From Haloarcula rubra (GTDB lineage Archaea > Halobacteriota > Halobacteria > Halobacteriales > Haloarculaceae), in the NCBI RefSeq assembly GCF_019599465.1, contig NZ_RKLR01000003.1:310001-374000 (forward strand): 64,000 nucleotides of DNA, read 5' to 3'. Under the pieces are notes generated by a model. It had not been told where the DNA came from. It saw only the letters and a list, made by a program, of their open reading frames with translations, and did no database searches. Both the position numbers and the translations under genes were made by a program. Below, one piece after another: positions 404 to 9,958 of this stretch. Numbering within the stretch: the stretch's first letter is position 1; each line of letters opens with the position of its first letter.

Positions 404-3400
404 CTATCGGGACACCGTGGCGACGGCGTCTGCGAGTTTCTCGACCGGATGAGGCGGCTCTTCGCCGGTCGGTCCATCGGCTATCTGCGTCCGACAGGAC
501 GCGCCGGGAGCGACGACCTGTTCGCCGTCGCTGTCGGCTATCTGGTCGTAGAGGATGCCCGCGATGGCCTTGCTCATCGAGTAGTGTTCGGCCTCGTAGC
601 CGAAACTGCCGGCCATCCCGCAACACCCCGAGTCCAGCGGGTCGACGGCGTAGCCGGCCCGACGGAGGACGCCGACGGCGTGGTGGTCCTTCTTCGTCGC
701 CTTCTGGTGGCAGTGACCGTGGTAGGTCAGCGACGCCGACGCGCCGTTCCAGTCGACGTTCGCGTCCAGCGCGAAGCGGTCGAGGTACTCACAGACGCCG
801 AAGGCGTTGCGTGCGACCGTCGTCGCGCCGTCGTGGTCGTGGCCGAGCAGGTCCAGATAGTCCGACTGGACCATCACGGCGTCGGACGGTTCCACGACGA
901 CCACGTCCCAGCCGTCCTCGACCATCGGTTCGAGGGCCGCGACGTTGGTCGCCGCTCGGTCGCGTGCGGTGTCGACGAACCCTTTCGAGTGGGCCGCCCG
1001 TCCCGAGGCAGTCACGTCGTCGGGGACCTGTACGTGGACGTCCGCGGCCTCCAGCACTTCGACGGCCGCTCGCAGGACCTCGGGGTGACTGTAGTTGTTG
1101 TAGGTGTCGGGGAACAGCAAGGCCTTGCGTTCGGCGTCCTGTTCGGACACCCGCGGTCCGCGGTCGGCCCACCAGTCCGCGAACGTCTCCCGGCGGAACG
1201 TCGGCAGGTCGCGTTCGCGGGCGACGCCGAGCAGTTTCTCGCCGAGGTAGTCGCTCCCTGGAAGGGCCTGAGCCCAGTTCGAGAGCGGCGCGAGCGCGCT
1301 CCCGACTTTGCTCACCGTCTCGACGTTCGCGAACACCTTCTCGCGCAGGCTCGCGCCGTGTTTCTGGTGGTGTGCGTGTTCGACCTCCGTCTTGAGTTTC
1401 GCCATGTCCACCTCGCTGGGACAGTCCTTCGCACACCCCTTACAGCCGATACAGAGGTCCATGACCTCCGAGACGAACTCGTCGTCGGTCGGGTCGTCCG
1501 GCAGGTCGCCGCTCATCGCCTGCCGGAGCATGTTCGCCCGGCCGCGTGTGGCGGTAATCTCCTCGTCGGCCGCCCGGTAGGTCGGACACATCACGCCGCC
1601 GGTGGTCTCCTGCGGGCCGCGACAACCACCACAGCCGTGACACAACTCGACCATCCCCTGCATCCCGTTCTCGTTGTCCCACGAGAGTTGGGGCTCGAAG
1701 TCGAAGTCGAACTCGTAGTCCGGGGAGAACCGCAGGTTCTCGGTCATGTCGACGGTGCGTGCCCGGGGTGGGGCCTCGCCCGCCTCGACGGCCGCCTCGT
1801 CGACGCCGACGACCTGCCCCGGGTTGAGGAGCCAGTCGGGGTCGAACGCCGTCTTCAGGTCCCGAAACACCTCCCAGACGGCGTCGCCGTACAGTTTGTG
1901 GTTCCACTGCGTGCGGGCGCGCCCGTCGCCGTGTTCGCCCGAGACCGAACCGCCGTACTCCCGGACGAGGTCCGTCGCACCGTCGGCGATGGCCTCCATC
2001 TGTTCGACGCCCTCCAGCGTCTTCGTGTTCACGAGCGGCCGGATGTGGAGACACCCCGGCCCGGCGTGGGCGTAGAACGAGGCGAACGTGCCTTCCCGTT
2101 CGAGGACGTCCTGGAAGTCCGCGACGTACTCGGGGAGGTTCTCGGGCGGGACCGCCGTGTCCTCGATGAAACTGATGTGTTTGGCGTCGCTGGTCCGGGA
2201 GAGGAGGATGGGGAGGCCGGACTTACGGAGTTTCCAGAACCGCTCCCGCTCGGCGTCGTCGTGGGCCTCGCGGCCGTGGAACGCCCGAAGCGGGGCGGCA
2301 GTCAGGGCCTCGGCGTCGGCCTGCGGGACGGCCTCGGTCGAGACGTCGCCGACGCGGTCCGTGAGGAGGTCCGCCACTCTCTGCTTGCCCTGCGGGTCGT
2401 TCTCGGCGTAGAACTCCACGAGGAGGACCGCCCCCGTCCCCTCGGGGAGGATTTCGTCGACGAGGTCCCCGAACTCCTCGGTGCCGGCCGCGAGGTCGAG
2501 CAACACGTCGTCTAAGACTTCCAGCGCCGCCGGGTCGTGCTCGAGGATGGGCGAGACGTCCTCCATCGCCGAGACGAGGTCCTCGTAGGCCAGCAACGCG
2601 AGCGACTTGGTCTCCGGGATGGGTTCGAGCGAGACGGTGGCCTCCGTCACGATACCCAGCGTCCCCTCGCTCCCGGCCAGCAGTCGGGCGAGGTTGACCG
2701 TCCCCGCCTCGCCGTACTCGCCGTCGGCTTCGGCGACGAGTCGGTCGAGGTTGTACCCCGAGACGTTCCGCTTGAGGTCGGGGAAGGCGGCGTCCACGTC
2801 GTCCCGCTCCTCGTCGAGAATCCGGACGACTGCGGCGTGAATCCGCGCTTCGACGTCGCCGTCGGGGTCGGCGGTCTCCCGGAGCGTCTCCACCTCGACG
2901 TAGCCGAACGTCGTCACCGTCCCGTCGGCGAGGACCACTTCACAGGACTCGACGTAGTGGTCGGTCTTGCCGTACTGGAGCGAGTGGGCACCGGTCGAGT
3001 TGTTGCCGATGGCACCGCCGAGCGCCGACTTCTCGCCCCACGCGGGGTCGGGCGCGAACTTCAGGTCGTGGGGCGCGAGTTCTGCGTTCAGGTCGCCGAG
3101 CGTGGTCCCGACCTGCGCGGTGGCGCGGGCGGCGTCGGGGTCCACGTCCAGCAGTGCGTCCATGTGGCGAGTGAAGTCGAGGACGACGGCCTCGTTGACC
3201 GACTGCCCGGCGAGACTGGTGCCGCCGCCCCGGGGTAAGACGGGAATCTCCCGCCGTGCGCAGTAGTCCATCACGGCGGCCACGTCGGCCGTCGATTCGG
3301 GGTAGACGACGCCGACCGGCGTCACCTCGTACGCGCTGGCGTCGGTCGCGTAGAGTTGTCGCGAGTACTCGTCGAACCGTACGTCACCGTCGACGCGGTC

Positions 3401-3511
3401 GGCGATGTCGGCGACCAGACCGGGCCGGTCCACGGCGTCGGTCCGATAGTCGTAGTCCGACCGCGCGTCGGTGGCCGGGTCCTCGCTCGGCCCCTGTTCG
3501 GTAGCACCCAT
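404..3511 (-). CDS. FAD-binding and Fe-S oxidoreductase, D-lactate dehydrogenase/GlcD-GlcF type
   Basis: A 1035-residue fusion protein. Residues about 60-290 form a PCMH-type FAD-binding domain (PRGGGTSLAGQ pyrophosphate loop, GGAIGNNSTGAHS), followed by the FAD-oxidase C-terminal domain. Two 4Fe-4S ferredoxin motifs follow (CHGCGGC...C and CIGCKGCAKDC), then CCG cysteine-rich repeats (HGHCHQKAT and SGCCGMAGSFG). This is the architecture of GlcD fused to GlcF, that is, a quinone-linked D-lactate or 2-hydroxyacid dehydrogenase at the cytoplasmic membrane face. The ATG at 3511 is preferred over an upstream in-frame one at 3550. It is divergent from the liv transporter genes with a 128-base gap. 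Substrate cannot be read from sequence; a menaquinone-linked role would fit the men genes downstream. Confidence 0.88.
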   Translation of the reverse strand: MGATEQGPSEDPATDARSDYDYRTDAVDRPGLVADIADRVDGDVRFDEYSRQLYATDASAYEVTPVGVVYPESTADVAAVMDYCARREIPVLPRGGGTSLAGQSVNEAVVLDFTRHMDALLDVDPDAARATAQVGTTLGDLNAELAPHDLKFAPDPAWGEKSALGGAIGNNSTGAHSLQYGKTDHYVESCEVVLADGTVTTFGYVEVETLRETADPDGDVEARIHAAVVRILDEERDDVDAAFPDLKRNVSGYNLDRLVAEADGEYGEAGTVNLARLLAGSEGTLGIVTEATVSLEPIPETKSLALLAYEDLVSAMEDVSPILEHDPAALEVLDDVLLDLAAGTEEFGDLVDEILPEGTGAVLLVEFYAENDPQGKQRVADLLTDRVGDVSTEAVPQADAEALTAAPLRAFHGREAHDDAERERFWKLRKSGLPILLSRTSDAKHISFIEDTAVPPENLPEYVADFQDVLEREGTFASFYAHAGPGCLHIRPLVNTKTLEGVEQMEAIADGATDLVREYGGSVSGEHGDGRARTQWNHKLYGDAVWEVFRDLKTAFDPDWLLNPGQVVGVDEAAVEAGEAPPRARTVDMTENLRFSPDYEFDFDFEPQLSWDNENGMQGMVELCHGCGGCRGPQETTGGVMCPTYRAADEEITATRGRANMLRQAMSGDLPDDPTDDEFVSEVMDLCIGCKGCAKDCPSEVDMAKLKTEVEHAHHQKHGASLREKVFANVETVSKVGSALAPLSNWAQALPGSDYLGEKLLGVARERDLPTFRRETFADWWADRGPRVSEQDAERKALLFPDTYNNYSHPEVLRAAVEVLEAADVHVQVPDDVTASGRAAHSKGFVDTARDRAATNVAALEPMVEDGWDVVVVEPSDAVMVQSDYLDLLGHDHDGATTVARNAFGVCEYLDRFALDANVDWNGASASLTYHGHCHQKATKKDHHAVGVLRRAGYAVDPLDSGCCGMAGSFGYEAEHYSMSKAIAGILYDQIADSDGEQVVAPGASCRTQIADGPTGEEPPHPVEKLADAVATVSR

Positions 3512-3598
3512 GGTCGGACGTTCGAGCGACGTGACGTTAACCTGACGCACACGACGGCATTCCCGCCTCGTCGTTCCAATCGGCCGACGAGAACCACC

Positions 3599-3626: not shown

Positions 3627-3643
3627 CCATTGCTAACCAATGG
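3627..3643 (+). promoter_or_regulatory. Inverted repeat spanning the livH start codon
   Basis: CCATTG (3627-3632) and CAATGG (3638-3643) form a 6-base inverted repeat with a 5-base centre, and the right arm contains the ATG of livH. It could be a second operator over the transcription start or a small hairpin hiding the start codon. The role is inferred. Confidence 0.45.
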
Positions 3644-4755
3644 GTATCGCTGAAACAGTCTCGGATGGCCGACAACTGGCGATAGAGCGGCCGGGTGCTG
3701 GTGCCGTCGCCGCCGTCGTCCTCTATCTGGTCGCCGACCTCGCGACGAAACTGCTCGGAACCACGGTGTACGCCCTCGGATTCAGGGTCATGGGTGGGGC
3801 ACTGACCGTCGGGTCGCTGGCCTCGATGGTGTTAGACGGGTTGCTCGTCGGCCTCGCGGTGGGGCTGGCCGGCATCGGCCTCTCGATGACCTACAGCATC
3901 CTCGACTTCGCGAACTTCGCGCACGGTGATACGGTCACCGTGGGCGCCTTCCTCGGCTGGGTCGCCGCGTACGTCACGGCGAATCTGGCCGTCAGCGCAC
4001 CCCTGACGGACCTCTTCCTGTTCAACGGCGGCGCCCAACTGAGCGCGTCCGCCTCGTGGGTGCTCGTCCTGTTCGGCCTCGTCGTCGCCGCCGTCGGCAC
4101 CGTCGCCGTCGTCCTCGTCGTCGACCGCATCGTCTACCGCCCCATGCGTGACTCGGGCAACATCGCCCTGCTCATCGCCTCTATCGGGGTAGCACTGGCG
4201 CTTCGGTACCTCGTCGCCTTCGTCTTCAGCACGCAGACCAGCGGCGTCGCCACCAGCGGCACGCGTCTCCAGTTGTTCGCCGGGGTCGCCATCACGGACA
4301 ACGAAATCGCGCTCCTCGTCGTCGCCGTGGTCCTGATGCTCGGCGTCCACCTCCTGCTCCAGCGGACGAAACTCGGGAAGGCGATGCGGGCGATGGCCGA
4401 CAACGAGGACCTCGCGCGCGTCACCGGCATCCCGACCGAACGGGTCGTCCGCCTGACGTGGGTGCTGGGCGGCGCACTGGCCGGGACGAGCGGCTACCTG
4501 CTCGTCCTGGAGAGCGGGACCATCTCGTTCAACTTCGGGTGGATTCTCCTCCTGCTCATCTTCGCGGCCGTCATCGTCGGCGGCATCGGCTCCATCTACG
4601 GCGCGATGGCCGGCGGCGTACTCATCGGCCTCGTCGACAGTCTGGCGCTCATCTGGCTCCCGTCGGGACTGACGCGGGCCGCCGCCTTCGCGGTCCTCAT
4701 CGTCGTCTTGCTCCTGCGCCCGTCTGGCATCTTCGGGGGGGTGAGCACGGCATGA
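3640..4755 (+). CDS. livH: Branched-chain amino acid ABC transporter permease LivH
   Basis: A 371-residue polytopic membrane protein with about eight to nine hydrophobic helices. The LivH signature includes GLSMTYSILDFANFAHGD near residue 85 and the cytoplasmic coupling-loop region GKAMRAMADNEDLARVTGI followed by GIGSIYGAMAGGVLIG. It forms one half of the membrane channel with LivM. It is the first gene of a four-gene operon (livHMGF); its stop overlaps the livM start by four bases (ATGA). It carries an N-terminal extension of about 50 residues with one extra helix compared with bacterial LivH. Substrate is probably branched-chain amino acids or a related amide/amino acid; the binding protein is convergent at the far end of the cluster. 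Confidence 0.95.
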   Translation: MGIAETVSDGRQLAIERPGAGAVAAVVLYLVADLATKLLGTTVYALGFRVMGGALTVGSLASMVLDGLLVGLAVGLAGIGLSMTYSILDFANFAHGDTVTVGAFLGWVAAYVTANLAVSAPLTDLFLFNGGAQLSASASWVLVLFGLVVAAVGTVAVVLVVDRIVYRPMRDSGNIALLIASIGVALALRYLVAFVFSTQTSGVATSGTRLQLFAGVAITDNEIALLVVAVVLMLGVHLLLQRTKLGKAMRAMADNEDLARVTGIPTERVVRLTWVLGGALAGTSGYLLVLESGTISFNFGWILLLLIFAAVIVGGIGSIYGAMAGGVLIGLVDSLALIWLPSGLTRAAAFAVLIVVLLLRPSGIFGGVSTA

Positions 4756-6035
4756 GCGGTTTCGAAGACGTTCGCGACAGACTGGAGGCGCTCCCCGACG
4801 CCGCGCTCGTCGTGTCGTTCCTCGTCGGCATCTGGCTGCTACTGACGCTGCTGGCCTTCGCCGTCGGCGGCGCGCAATCGGCCAACCTCGCCGCCGGGTT
4901 CGTCGGCAGCGTGACGGTGCTCGTCGGTGCCTACGCCATCCTCACGCTGGCGCTGAACCTCCAGTGGGGGTACACGGGACTGTTCAACATCGGTATCGCG
5001 GGCTTCATGGCCGTCGGCGCGTACACGACGGCCATCCTGACGGCGCCGGTAGACCCCGGTGCGGGCGGCGTCCCGGGCTTCGGCCTCCCGCTGTTGGTCG
5101 GCCTGCTAGGTGGAATGGTGATGGCCGCCATCGTCGGCGCCATCGCCGCCCTCCCCGCGCTCCGGTTGCGCGCGGACTACCTCGCCATCGTCACCGTCGC
5201 GCTCTCGGAGATTATCCGCCTGTTCGTCAACTGGGGCGGCGTCGCGGAAGTCGAAGTGTTCGGCAAGCGGTTCGGGACGGGTGGCGCGACCGGCATCTCG
5301 TTCAAGTCGCCCGACGAAGTCGTCGCGACGCTCGTCAACGGTCCCGGGCAACCGCTCGTCGCCGCCGCCGAGAGCGTGGGCATCTCCGGGCCGAACGTCG
5401 TCAACATGGCCTACGGTCTGAGTCTGCTGGCCATCGCGGCCGGGAGTTACTGGGTCCTCAGTCGGGTCTCGGACTCACCGTTCGGGCGCGTGTTGAAAGC
5501 TATCCGGGAGGACGAGACGGTCACCCAGTCGCTCGGCAAGGACACCCGCCTGTTCAAGATAAAGGCGTTCATGATAGGGTGTGCGCTGATGGGGTTGGCC
5601 GGCGCGCTGTTCCGCGGCGGCGCTGGCTACATCAGCCCCGCCCAGTTCCGGCCGGTCATCACGTTCTACGTCTTCGCGGCGCTCATCATCGGTGGCTCCG
5701 GGTCGAACACGGGGAGCATCCTCGGCGCGGCGACGTTCTCCGCGTTGCTGTTCTACCTCCCGGCCCGGCTCGGCGAGTACTTCCCGACGTTCGGCCGGAG
5801 CGCGCCCGGCAACGTCTTCGAGGCCATCGCCGCCCTCGGGTCGCTCGACCCGACGCCGCTGGTCGCCTACACGGTCGGGAACATCAGTACGCTCCGGTTC
5901 GTCCTCATCGGTGCCGTCCTCGTCTACATCATCCAGAACCAGCCAGACGGATTGCTCGGCCACCGCAACGAACCAGCCGCGAGCGTGGACCTGAGACGAC
6001 CCCGGTCCGCCGACGGAGGTGAGACGGATGAGTGA
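4752..6035 (+). CDS. livM: Branched-chain amino acid ABC transporter permease LivM
   Basis: A 427-residue permease and partner of LivH. Family marks are NLQWGYTGLFNIGIAGFMAVGAY near residue 65, the LRADYLAIVTVALSEIIR segment, and GRVLKAIREDETVTQSLGKD as the coupling loop for the ATPases. It has about nine transmembrane helices and a short Arg/Asp-rich cytoplasmic tail. The start is the ATG overlapping the livH stop by four bases, implying translational coupling. The 3' end overlaps livG by eight bases. The roughly 60-residue stretch between residues 170 and 230 is longer than in bacterial LivM and probably lies in an extracellular loop. Confidence 0.95.
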   Translation: MSGFEDVRDRLEALPDAALVVSFLVGIWLLLTLLAFAVGGAQSANLAAGFVGSVTVLVGAYAILTLALNLQWGYTGLFNIGIAGFMAVGAYTTAILTAPVDPGAGGVPGFGLPLLVGLLGGMVMAAIVGAIAALPALRLRADYLAIVTVALSEIIRLFVNWGGVAEVEVFGKRFGTGGATGISFKSPDEVVATLVNGPGQPLVAAAESVGISGPNVVNMAYGLSLLAIAAGSYWVLSRVSDSPFGRVLKAIREDETVTQSLGKDTRLFKIKAFMIGCALMGLAGALFRGGAGYISPAQFRPVITFYVFAALIIGGSGSNTGSILGAATFSALLFYLPARLGEYFPTFGRSAPGNVFEAIAALGSLDPTPLVAYTVGNISTLRFVLIGAVLVYIIQNQPDGLLGHRNEPAASVDLRRPRSADGGETDE

Positions 6036-6867
6036 CGCCGAGACGGTCGAGCGAACGATGCCGGAGAGTGACGTTCCCACCACCAGCGACGCCATCGACT
6101 CGCCGCTGCTGGAAGTCGACGGACTCCGCAAGCAGTTCGGCGGGGTCACGGCCGTCGACGGCGCGTCGTTCAAGGTCGCCAAAGGGTCCTTCACCGGCCT
6201 CATCGGGCCGAACGGCGCCGGGAAGTCGACGACGTTCAACTGCATCACCGGCATCCACGAACCGACCGCCGGGACCGTCACGTTCGACGGTCACGACGTG
6301 ACAGGGCTGGCGCCGTACACCCTCGCCAAGCGGGGCCTCGTCCGCACGTTCCAGATCGCGCGCGAACTCTCCGAGATGACGGTGCTGGAGAACGTGATGC
6401 TGGCGCCGCCGGGCCAGCTAGGTGAATCGGCGTTGCGGTCGGTCGTCCCGGGCCTGCGCGAACGGGTCCAGCGCGACGAGACCGAAGTCGTCGAGGCGGC
6501 GTGGGAGACGCTGGAGTTCTTCGAGATAGACCACCTCGCCCACGAGAACGCCGGCAACCTCTCGGGCGGCCAGCGGAAACTGCTGGAGATGGCCCGCGTC
6601 CTGATGACCGAACCGGAGATGGTGCTACTGGACGAACCGCTGGCCGGCGTCAACCCCACGCTGGAGGAGAAACTGCTGGACCGAATCGACGAACTGCGAC
6701 AGGACGGACTGACCTTCCTGCTGGTCGAACACGACATGGACGTCATCATGAACCACTGCGAACACATCATCGTCATGCATCAGGGACAGGTCCTCGCCGA
6801 GGGCGACGCCGACACCATCCAGTCGGACGAGCGCGTTCTCGAGGCCTATCTGGGAGGTGACGTATGA
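6028..6867 (+). CDS. livG: ABC transporter ATP-binding protein LivG
   Basis: A 279-residue ABC ATPase. Walker A is GPNGAGKS near residue 60, the ABC signature is LSGGQRK, Walker B is MVLLDEPLAG, and the H-loop is LLVEHDMDVIM. The LivG-specific C-terminal end is ERVLEAYLGG. The ATG at 6028 is preferred over a GTG at 6019 because a strong Shine-Dalgarno (GGAGGTGA, 6015-6022) lies five bases before it. It overlaps livM by eight bases and livF by four. It energises uptake as a heterodimer with LivF. Confidence 0.95.
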   Translation: MSDAETVERTMPESDVPTTSDAIDSPLLEVDGLRKQFGGVTAVDGASFKVAKGSFTGLIGPNGAGKSTTFNCITGIHEPTAGTVTFDGHDVTGLAPYTLAKRGLVRTFQIARELSEMTVLENVMLAPPGQLGESALRSVVPGLRERVQRDETEVVEAAWETLEFFEIDHLAHENAGNLSGGQRKLLEMARVLMTEPEMVLLDEPLAGVNPTLEEKLLDRIDELRQDGLTFLLVEHDMDVIMNHCEHIIVMHQGQVLAEGDADTIQSDERVLEAYLGGDV

Positions 6868-7619
6868 GCCAGCAGGCCCAGCGGTCCGCCGACGCGTCGC
6901 TACCTGACCCCGCCGAGAGCCTGCTCGCGGTCCGCAATCTGGACGCCGGCTACGGGGACCTGCAGGTGCTCGAAGACGTGCACATGGACGTCGCCGACGG
7001 CGAGTACGTCGTCATCGTCGGCCCCAACGGCGCGGGGAAGTCGACGGTGATGAAGTCCGTCTTCGGCCTGACGACCTACATGGGTGGGTCGGTCGTCTTC
7101 GACGGCGAGGACATCAGCCAACGCCGCCCGGACGAGATTATCCACGAGGGTATCGGTTACGTCCCGCAGAACGACAACGTGTTCGGGTCGCTCACGGTTC
7201 GCGAGAACCTAGAGATGGGCGCGTACATCCTCGACGAAGTCCCCGAGGACCAGATTCGGACGATATACGACCGGTTCCCCATCTTAGAGGAGCGCTCGAC
7301 CCAGAAAGCCGGGACGCTCTCTGGCGGCCAGCAGCAGATGCTGGCGATGGGGCGGGCGCTGATGCTCGACCCGGACCTGCTCTTGCTGGACGAACCGTCG
7401 GCGGGGCTGGCACCGGACCTCGTCGCGGAGATGTTCGACCGCATCGACGGCATCAACGACGACGGCACCGCCGTCCTGATGGTCGAACAGAACGCCAAGG
7501 AGGCGCTGCGGCGCTGTGACCGCGGCTACGTCCTCGTGCAGGGCCAGAACCGGTATCAGGACGACGGCGACGTCCTGCTCGCGGACCAGCAGGTCAGGCA
7601 GGACTTCCTCGGCGGCTAG
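6864..7619 (+). CDS. livF: ABC transporter ATP-binding protein LivF
   Basis: A 251-residue ABC ATPase with Walker A GPNGAGKS, signature LSGGQQQM, Walker B LLLLDEPSAGLAP and H-loop VLMVEQNAKEALRRCDRGYVL, all typical of LivF (the MVEQN motif separates it from LivG). A GGGAGGTGA Shine-Dalgarno precedes the ATG, which overlaps the livG stop by four bases. It is the last gene of the operon; the convergent binding-protein gene ends 24 bases further on. Confidence 0.95.
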   Translation: MSQQAQRSADASLPDPAESLLAVRNLDAGYGDLQVLEDVHMDVADGEYVVIVGPNGAGKSTVMKSVFGLTTYMGGSVVFDGEDISQRRPDEIIHEGIGYVPQNDNVFGSLTVRENLEMGAYILDEVPEDQIRTIYDRFPILEERSTQKAGTLSGGQQQMLAMGRALMLDPDLLLLDEPSAGLAPDLVAEMFDRIDGINDDGTAVLMVEQNAKEALRRCDRGYVLVQGQNRYQDDGDVLLADQQVRQDFLGG

Positions 7620-7643: not shown

Positions 7644-9023
7644 TTACTGGTTCAGCGCGCTGTTTATCTGTGAGGTGTAGGATGACTGCTGAGATTCGAA
7701 TCCCACCTGCTGGACGACGCTCCCGTCCTGGTTCTCGAACGCGTCGACGAAGGCCTGCTGGAGCGCCTGCCCGTAGCTGTTGTTCAGGTACAGCGTCGAG
7801 GCCGTCGACGCGCCGAGTTCCTCGGTCGCCAACTGCGCGAGCACCTGCCCCTGCAGGGCGTCGCTCGGCGGCGTCCGGAAGACGAAGTCGTCGTCTTCGA
7901 GAGTGGTGATGGCCGGCGAGGTGGACGCGGGCGAGCACCCGACCACCTGGTTGTCAACGAGGACGTTGTTCGCCACCTGAATCGTCGCTTCGGACGAGGC
8001 CGCGCCGGTGATGGACGGGTAGCCGGCGCTGACGAGCGAGTTCGCCGCGTTGACGGCGGCCTGTGCCGTCGACTGGGTGTCACCGACCTGCGTGTCGATG
8101 CTCTGGTCGATTTGGTCCCGGAGCTGAATCGCCGGCAACAGCGCGGCGTCACGAATCGCCTGCCCCAGCGGACCGAGGTCACCGGTCTCCGGCTGGAGGA
8201 CGCCGAGTCGGACCGTCCGGTCGGCCCCGCTACCGCTCCCGGACGGTTCCGGTTGCGCGAGGTCGGCGTTCCCACCGAAGTCGATGGTCTGTTGGGTCTC
8301 GACGCCGCTCTGGGTGAAGCCGAACACCTGATACTGCGCGGAGGTGATGTCGCCGGCGTCGTCGAAGTTGACGTTGCTGGACGCCCCCTCGTACTGGATG
8401 TTCTCGCCGGCGGCCGCCGCTTCGGCCGCCTCGGGCAGTTCGGACGGCGTGTACGTCGTCCCGCCGGGGTTCGCGACGACCCGCATGTGGTCGCGAATCG
8501 CGGTGCCGTCGTTCTCGCCGGCCATCAGGTTGGCCAGAATCTGGACCGCCGAGGCGTCGTACGCCTGCGAGGTGAACACGCCGGCCTCGTCGTAGTCGAA
8601 CTCCGACGTGAACAGGTTCGTGAACGTGTCGACGCCCGGACCGGCGGCGGACGGCGCCGACCCGGTGACGTTGGACATGTCGTTGCCCACGTCGCCGGGA
8701 AGACTGCCGTCCTGTAGCCCGTCGGTCACGAGGATGTCGACGGTGTCGTCGCCGTAGTCCGAGTAGTAGTCCTTGAACAGCTGGACGCCGCTCTGCGGGT
8801 AGCCGACCACCATCAGGACGTCGGGCGTGTCGGCACCGCCACCGCCGTCACTCCCGCCGTCGCCGGTGGTCCCGCCGTCGCCGCCGTCTGTACCGCCGTC
8901 ACCACCGTCGCCGCCACCGCCGTCGCTCGGTTCCGTCGAACACCCGGCGAGGCCGACCAGACTCAGGGTACTGAGCGCACCGGTACGCTTGAGGAACGTT
9001 CGTCTACTGCTATCACGACTCAT
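7644..9023 (-). CDS. Substrate-binding lipoprotein of LivK type with circularly permuted halves
   Basis: A 459-residue Tat lipoprotein: SRRTFLKR twin-Arg signal, lipobox LAGC (Cys28), then a Gly/Asp-rich tether to about residue 66. The mature part belongs to type I periplasmic binding proteins (Peripla_BP_6, LivK/LivJ family), but the order is swapped. The segment that normally forms the C-terminal half (PDVLMVVGYPQSGVQLF to QTIDFGG, residues 67-251) comes first. A Gly/Ser/Pro linker (252-268) leads to the segment that normally starts the mature protein (RTVRLGVLQPETGDLGPLG, from 269), and the chain ends at SSYTSQINSALNQ, where the usual protein would run into PDVLMVVGY. It should feed LivHMGF. 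One intact reading frame argues against an assembly artefact. The swap is judged from my memory of the family, not from an alignment. Confidence 0.88.
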   Translation of the reverse strand: MSRDSSRRTFLKRTGALSTLSLVGLAGCSTEPSDGGGGDGGDGGTDGGDGGTTGDGGSDGGGGADTPDVLMVVGYPQSGVQLFKDYYSDYGDDTVDILVTDGLQDGSLPGDVGNDMSNVTGSAPSAAGPGVDTFTNLFTSEFDYDEAGVFTSQAYDASAVQILANLMAGENDGTAIRDHMRVVANPGGTTYTPSELPEAAEAAAAGENIQYEGASSNVNFDDAGDITSAQYQVFGFTQSGVETQQTIDFGGNADLAQPEPSGSGSGADRTVRLGVLQPETGDLGPLGQAIRDAALLPAIQLRDQIDQSIDTQVGDTQSTAQAAVNAANSLVSAGYPSITGAASSEATIQVANNVLVDNQVVGCSPASTSPAITTLEDDDFVFRTPPSDALQGQVLAQLATEELGASTASTLYLNNSYGQALQQAFVDAFENQDGSVVQQVGFESQQSSYTSQINSALNQ

Positions 9024-9133: not shown

Positions 9134-9877
9134 TCAGGGTGCGAGGCGGTTCTTCCGGTTCTTCATCTCGCGTTCGTAGTGGTCGAACGTGATGGGGCAC
9201 CACTCGCCCGCGATGTCGAGGAGTTCCTCCGTCATCTCGCGAATCTCCCACTGTGCGTCCGCGGCGGCGCGCATGTCGGCGACGTGCATCAGCATCCGCG
9301 CGTTCATCGACATCACGATGTTGACCTTCGTCCCGATAGGGAGGACGAACCGGGCGTCCTCCGGTGGCATCCCGAGGTCGAGGAGTTCCTGATAGGACTC
9401 GACGGCGTCCTCGATGGTGTCACGGAAAATCTCGGCCCGTCGCTCGACGTCGGCCTCGTCGACGGCCCCTTGCTTCTGGTTGCGGCCGACCCACTCGGGG
9501 TCGGTCGCCGACGGCGGGACGACGACCATCTCGCCATCCCGGACGTCGGCCGGGTCGACGTCGTCGAAGGAGACGTACCGCATCGACTGGACGTCGAAGG
9601 AGACGTGGCGGTGGCGCGTAATCTGTGCCATACAGGAGCGTGAGACGCCCTCGATGGCGAACGTTATCTGGGGGTGCTCGAAGGGGCCGAAGTGGCCGTG
9701 GTCCAGCAGGTGGCCGATGAGCGTCTCCTTCTTCTCTTCGAGCGTGTCGCCCTCGACCGTCTCCATCGTCGCTTCGATGGACTGGCCGCCGACGAACTCC
9801 GCGCTGTAGTCGTTGCGGGCGGCCTTACAGACGAGGTCCTCGGGGTCCTCCGTGGCTTCCAGCAGCGTGACTTCCAT
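9134..9877 (-). CDS. thyX: FAD-dependent thymidylate synthase ThyX
   Basis: A 247-residue enzyme making dTMP from dUMP with methylene-tetrahydrofolate, FAD and NAD(P)H. The ThyX signature RHRxxxxxxxS is present as RHRHVSFDVQS, followed by MRY; FGPFEHPQITFAIEGVSRSCMAQITRH and ARMLMHVADMRAAADAQWEI are further family blocks. The start at 9877 (EVTLLEAT) is chosen because a TATA-like AGTATTTTG lies 24-32 bases before it; an ATG 42 bases upstream would remove the promoter. It stands alone between the liv cluster and the RecA-like/HalX pair. Confidence 0.95.
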   Translation of the reverse strand: MEVTLLEATEDPEDLVCKAARNDYSAEFVGGQSIEATMETVEGDTLEEKKETLIGHLLDHGHFGPFEHPQITFAIEGVSRSCMAQITRHRHVSFDVQSMRYVSFDDVDPADVRDGEMVVVPPSATDPEWVGRNQKQGAVDEADVERRAEIFRDTIEDAVESYQELLDLGMPPEDARFVLPIGTKVNIVMSMNARMLMHVADMRAAADAQWEIREMTEELLDIAGEWCPITFDHYEREMKNRKNRLAP

Positions 9878-9900
9878 ACCGGGAGGGAACGCCGGAGGGT

Positions 9901-9909
9901 CAAAATACT
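9901..9909 (-). promoter_or_regulatory. TATA element of thyX
   Basis: AGTATTTTG on the minus strand, 24-32 bases before the ATG at 9877, which implies a leaderless mRNA and fixes the start. Confidence 0.5.
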
Positions 9910-9958
9910 TGCTCCCCACCGGTCAGAACGGACGCGACGCGTCGCTCCGACGGGCGCT

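Follow-up and report, generated by a model that had tools for sequence, protein, structure and literature searches.

A circularly permuted LivJ-type binding lipoprotein in the livHMGF slot of Haloarcula rubra and other haloarchaea

The binding-protein gene in the analysed window (the whole stretch of 64,000 nucleotides from Haloarcula rubra) encodes a naturally circularly permuted protein, in which the half that is normally C-terminal (B) precedes the half that is normally N-terminal (A). We read it, with a probability of about 0.8, as the functioning substrate-binding lipoprotein that serves the LivHMGF importer next to it (HAAT/branched-chain amino-acid type), the same cut having been made in about four lineages, one of which was cut again in lobe 1. 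The open reading frame begins with ATG, and its layout and that of the neighbouring genes are presented in Table 1.

Table 1. Features of the permuted binding-protein gene and of its neighbourhood in the window
Feature	Position	Strand	Remarks
Circularly permuted substrate-binding lipoprotein, 459 aa	7644..9023	-	Order signal-tether-B-linker-A
Signal peptide to lipobox Cys28 (MSRDSSRRTFLK...LVGLAGC), RR motif, Tat-lipoprotein-like	8940..9023	-	Direct sequence reading
Gly/Asp/Thr-rich flexible tether, residues 29-65	8829..8939	-	Sequence
B half, residues 66-250, normally the C-terminal Peripla_BP_6 half; begins at the cut, TPDVLMVVGY	8274..8828	-	
New inter-half linker, residues 251-267, from old C-terminus to old N-terminus (...GNADLAQPEPSGSGSGA)	8223..8273	-	
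A half, residues 268-459, normally the N-terminal half; stops at the cut	7647..8222	-	
livH-type permease (BPD_transp_2)	3640..4755	+	
livM-type permease (BPD_transp_2)	4731..6035	+	Start codon not settled
livG-type ATPase (ABC_tran, BCA_ABC_TP_C)	6034..6867	+	Start codon not settled
livF-type ATPase, convergent to the binding protein	6864..7619	+	Two stops 24 bp apart
Large FAD-linked oxidase with 4Fe-4S and cysteine-rich domains	404..3550	-	Adjoins livH; kept in several Haloarcula loci
ThyX-type thymidylate synthase	9134..9919	-	Adjoins the binding protein in Haloarcula

Concerning the N-terminal region, the RRTFLK and LAGC motifs were recognised by eye; the NCBIfam TAT model scores 12.5 bits, below its cut-off of 16.7. 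In the native chain, positions 1-186 of the 343 positions of the Peripla_BP_6 profile match residues 270-456 (73 bits), and the start of the profile therefore falls in the second half of the protein. When the chain is rotated, with residues 268-459 placed first and 66-250 second, the score rises to 93 bits and profile positions 1-309 of 343 are covered as a single stretch; ANF_receptor is matched over positions 25-351 of 353. The rotated protein is colinear along its entire length with 22 canonical orthologues from haloarchaea (52-60% identity). The joint profile of these sequences matches solved chains such as 3td9 (E 5e-35), 4n0q, 2lbp and 2liv, the order of the halves being normal in these matches. 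The rotated Pfam match and the match of the joint profile to LivJ-type chains show that the permutation is real and that both halves are complete. The features of a circular permutant are all found: complete swapped segments, a linker between the old termini, and new termini at one canonical loop. Homology to Peripla_BP_6 and the LivJ type extends across both domain halves, while the canonical N-to-C order is absent.

The canonical members run unbroken through ...SYTSxLxSALxDDPDxLxVIGY..., and their A|B junction is uniform and gap-free. The window protein ends at its stop with ...SYTSQINSALNQ, its domain starts with TPDVLMVVGY, and nothing is missing between the two. The cut lies at profile position ~191, which corresponds to LivJ residue ~190 (profile positions 3-252 match residues 2-251 of 2liv). 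In LivJ, one lobe is made up of residues 121-248 and 329-344, the other of residues 1-120 and 249-328 (PMC13103812); based on these limits, the new termini fall inside lobe 2. The linker must therefore run from the tail of lobe 2 to the start of lobe 1, as a fourth crossover besides the usual three, and since the chain begins in lobe 2, the lipid tether would be on lobe 2 and not on lobe 1. The initial annotation, made from the letters alone, had proposed a natural circular permutation with both halves complete, a chain end exactly where the canonical family continues, new termini within lobe 2 and a normal livHMGF in convergent orientation. The rotation and the full-length colinear alignment bear out the first of these, the alignment with the canonical orthologues the second, the profile mapping onto LivJ with the published lobe limits the third, and the Pfam matches at the neighbouring reading frames, together with the reading of the locus, the fourth. 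The more exact placing of the new termini between a helix and a strand, also proposed there, is a prediction.

In the proposed fold, the chain would start in the middle of lobe 2 and pass through the rest of that lobe, lobe 1 and the lobe-2 tail; a linker of ~15-25 residues would then form the fourth inter-lobe crossover to the old N-terminus, after which lobe 1 would be completed and the chain would end in mid lobe 2. An AlphaFold2 model made from six sequences (the window protein and five relatives) has a pLDDT of 33 and a pTM of 0.24, values too low to support any fold. In the rotated alignment, S77, T101 and D228 are invariant; judged by eye, we take these positions to be the equivalents of LivJ Ser79, Thr102 and Glu226. 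The convergent livHMGF, the Peripla_BP_6 homology and the conserved pocket-side positions point to a ligand of the amino-acid type, and the protein would be expected to form a closing Venus-flytrap fold that binds an amino-acid-like ligand and delivers it to LivHM. With LivJ/LivK (Peripla_BP_6; 3td9, 2liv, 1usg, 4n0q) it shares the family of both halves, the adjacent LivHMGF and the pocket-side Ser/Thr; it differs from them in its swapped halves, its termini near LivJ ~190 in lobe 2, its added linker and its lobe-2 tether.

The gene slot is the same for both orders, in more than 100 loci. Of the 125 loci read, nearly all have the binding-protein gene convergent to livHMGF, whichever its order; about 12 of the 125 have no liv genes that were found nearby. 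The canonical slot orthologues (for example L155, L156, L119 and L122) are 52-60% identical to the window protein after rotation and occupy the same convergent livHMGF slot where the flank is readable, but they have the normal A-B order.

The distribution of the two orders was followed across genomes. A scan of contigs gave five relatives in B-A order (L001-L005), with best segments 49-95% identical. A match is present in 305 of the 392 sampled haloarchaeal (Halobacteriales) genomes, and the permuted order is found in ~158 of the 392 (~40%, our own count from the table of matches), counted as a full-length match in permuted order at an E value of about 1e-100 or below. Matching genomes lacking such a match have mostly half-length matches. 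Among 63 genomes with split matches that were read, nearly all have the two pieces in canonical order and contiguous in one frame, with identities to the window protein mostly of 50-60%; a full-length permuted match is present as well in three of the 63. Outside Halobacteriales, a phylum-wide sample of 295 genomes contains no permuted member and only weak matches, and in the other orders of the phylum the order is canonical wherever both halves are seen. Eight matches are found on plasmids, none of them close or full-length in a single piece, and no relatives were found in the viral contigs searched.

Based on this distribution, the permutation is not a private event of Haloarcula rubra and is conserved in ~40% of the sampled haloarchaea. 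The initial annotation had also named outcomes that would speak against it. A single unbroken diagonal and a misassembly are both contradicted, since L001-L005 and well over 100 independent assemblies show the same order; the B-A order as the norm of the family holds in part, since it is common in the haloarchaeal slot and is not the norm of the wider family. An assembly error or a pseudogene is refuted as the source of the order: open frames in B-A order occur in well over 100 assemblies at ~48-97% identity, and a second cut, described below, is present in three assemblies.

It is also highly improbable that the permuted order is ancestral and that the canonical members are reversions. Nothing speaks for this directly, although unrooted change counts cannot separate gain from loss. 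The A-B order is that of the in-genome paralogue L007, of the sampled genomes from other orders of the phylum that show both halves, and of the solved LivJ-type chains; the canonical A|B junction is uniform and gap-free, and many reversions would be required.

The number of times the permuted order arose was read from trees, for which 129 proteins (68 permuted, 61 canonical) were rotated to one register. Four changes of order are required on the joined binding-protein tree, and four also on the tree of each half alone. The permuted proteins form four groups: a main clade spread over many families; the QW group, with the C-terminus QWSSVLNQ (L080, L184, L101, L102, L088 and L090); genus g12 (L079, L180 and L181); and a Haloarcula group, which includes the window protein. 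A careful tree of 66 binding proteins also gives four changes (bootstrap 5-95% range 4-4), forced by well-supported branches, and the group of the window protein is sister there to the canonical L119/L122. The transporter tree (LivHMGF, 110 loci, 1339 columns) is independent of the rotation of the binding protein and again needs four changes of order.

The groupings were compared by AU tests, in which values far below 1e-4 mean strongly rejected and nothing finer, and in which the groups were chosen after the first tree and the p values are uncorrected. On the transporter tree, a single clade of all permuted loci is rejected (p=7e-6), as are main with QW (p=6e-59) and main with Haloarcula and g12 (p=5e-4). 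Combined binding-protein and transporter data force three changes and reject main with QW (p~1e-55), main with Haloarcula and g12 (6e-4), main with g12 (6e-4), main with Haloarcula (p=3e-4) and QW with Haloarcula and g12 (1e-4). Neither the transporter data nor the combined data tell the Haloarcula clade apart from the g12 clade. The full set of binding proteins, taken by itself, rejects all permuted proteins as one clade weakly (p=0.025) and does not reject main with QW as one clade (p=0.093). Taken together, three origins of the permuted order appear to have good support, and four is the most likely number.

The two weak tests of the full binding-protein set would suit a single origin followed by horizontal transfer, in which resident canonical copies replaced the halves of the minor clades through gene conversion, the order being kept. 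The identical cut in all clades would also suit it, as would the (S/A)DSIPG motif common to the g12 and main linkers, which seems to be the best hint against full independence of the origins. We nevertheless hold such a history to be unlikely. Each half independently gives the same number of changes and the transporter trees agree; in most windows of 20 residues, the minor permuted groups resemble their canonical sisters more closely than they do the main permuted clade, and no residual similarity to the main clade is found in them near the cut or the termini. The Haloarcula and QW linkers are unlike the main-clade linker, and in two or three lineages conversion would have to cover both halves over their full length.

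A further form is found in genus g3, where L158 (G310) has the order signal-tether-A2-B-linker-A1. Its chain starts with LEINPTVEDTETR and ends with EVNEADLDIS, and the cut is in lobe 1, at about residue 43 of the A half. Two further g3 species have the same form at 98% (L209, G638) and 91% (L210, G642) identity. All segments of L158 are nearest to one permuted protein of the main clade, L103 (A1 69%, A2 66%, B 77%), the linker is of the main-clade type and the transporter falls within the main clade. Because segments, linker and transporter all belong to the main clade, the g3 form is best read as a re-permutation of a main-clade gene that was already permuted. Genus g3 as a whole contains canonical (G244, G289), main-type permuted (G051, G336), QW-type permuted (G043, G067) and re-permuted (G310) forms; since all these forms, with the two permuted types separate from each other, are present in one genus, the operon seems to have been exchanged often. 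Overall, we consider it probable that at least four independent permutations took place in the same loop, with a second-round permutation elsewhere in the protein in one genus, and that canonical, permuted and re-permuted orthologues coexist within a single genus.

Concerning the route, the usual model of circular permutation is a tandem duplication, an in-frame fusion and the loss of the outer halves, and such a route is plausible here: in each lineage, the gene would have been duplicated, the copies fused in frame and the outer halves lost. Tandem pairs of permuted binding-protein genes are present in the same slot in genus g41 (L083, L085, L089, L092, L094 and L096), with the two copies forming two sister clades; duplication therefore does occur in the slot. 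The canonical L119/L122 (family f5), sisters of the Haloarcula permuted group, carry a tether-like Gly/Ser/Thr-rich C-terminal tail, which could be a leftover of duplication and fusion, although this is suggestive only. Within 1.2 kb of the genes, no duplicated-half remnants or fused intermediates were found, except true tandem genes. A fission into separate A and B genes with re-fusion in reverse order, in place of the duplication, would account for the single recurrent cut; among the loci read there are no separate intact A and B genes, in searches that were not designed for split genes, and we regard this route as quite unlikely. Microhomology between the tether DNA and the A|B junction was considered as a cause of the recurrent cut and is unconvincing: enrichment shows at word length 10, with 5 of 56 genes where the mean per bin is 0.6, and not at word lengths 8 or 9. 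In L213 (G163:C2, ~1670-3050), a QW-type permuted gene is split by an insert of ~1.4 kb with an open frame of 396 codons, which looks like a putative insertion sequence.

Natural permutation is known in type I binding proteins. Tp0684 (TpMglB-2) of Treponema pallidum is naturally circularly permuted and was proposed as Type Ic / Cluster Bc; it binds glucose, its fourth inter-lobe crossover was observed, and one permuted family is described with it, found in spirochaetes and mainly Gram-positives (PMC4990184). It and the window protein are both natural type I permutants, with a lipid tether, which is predicted for the window protein, and a fourth crossover, seen in TpMglB-2 and predicted here. 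TpMglB-2 belongs to the sugar-binding MglB branch and is cut in lobe 1, with its first three strands moved to the C-terminus, whereas the window protein belongs to Peripla_BP_6 and is cut in lobe 2, and thus falls outside a TpMglB-2-like Type Ic / Cluster Bc. The initial annotation knew of no described natural permutation in the family of the window protein. Among open-licence full texts, no paper was found on permutation in archaeal branched-chain amino-acid binding proteins; for type I proteins as a whole, Tp0684/MglB-2 is a described case (PMC4990184).

The long flexible tethers may make it nearly neutral where the anchor sits, in which case permutants would be tolerated. Domain annotation that depends on order covers half of such permuted proteins, as with Pfam, whose match to the window protein is confined to the A half. 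Circular permutation is usually inferred from distant homologues, as one old event. The canonical and permuted orthologues described here, at 50-60% identity in one slot, are natural before/after pairs for protein rearrangement, and swaps of natural alleles could test the route (duplication, fission or recombination), the preferred cut and the cost in folding or transport.
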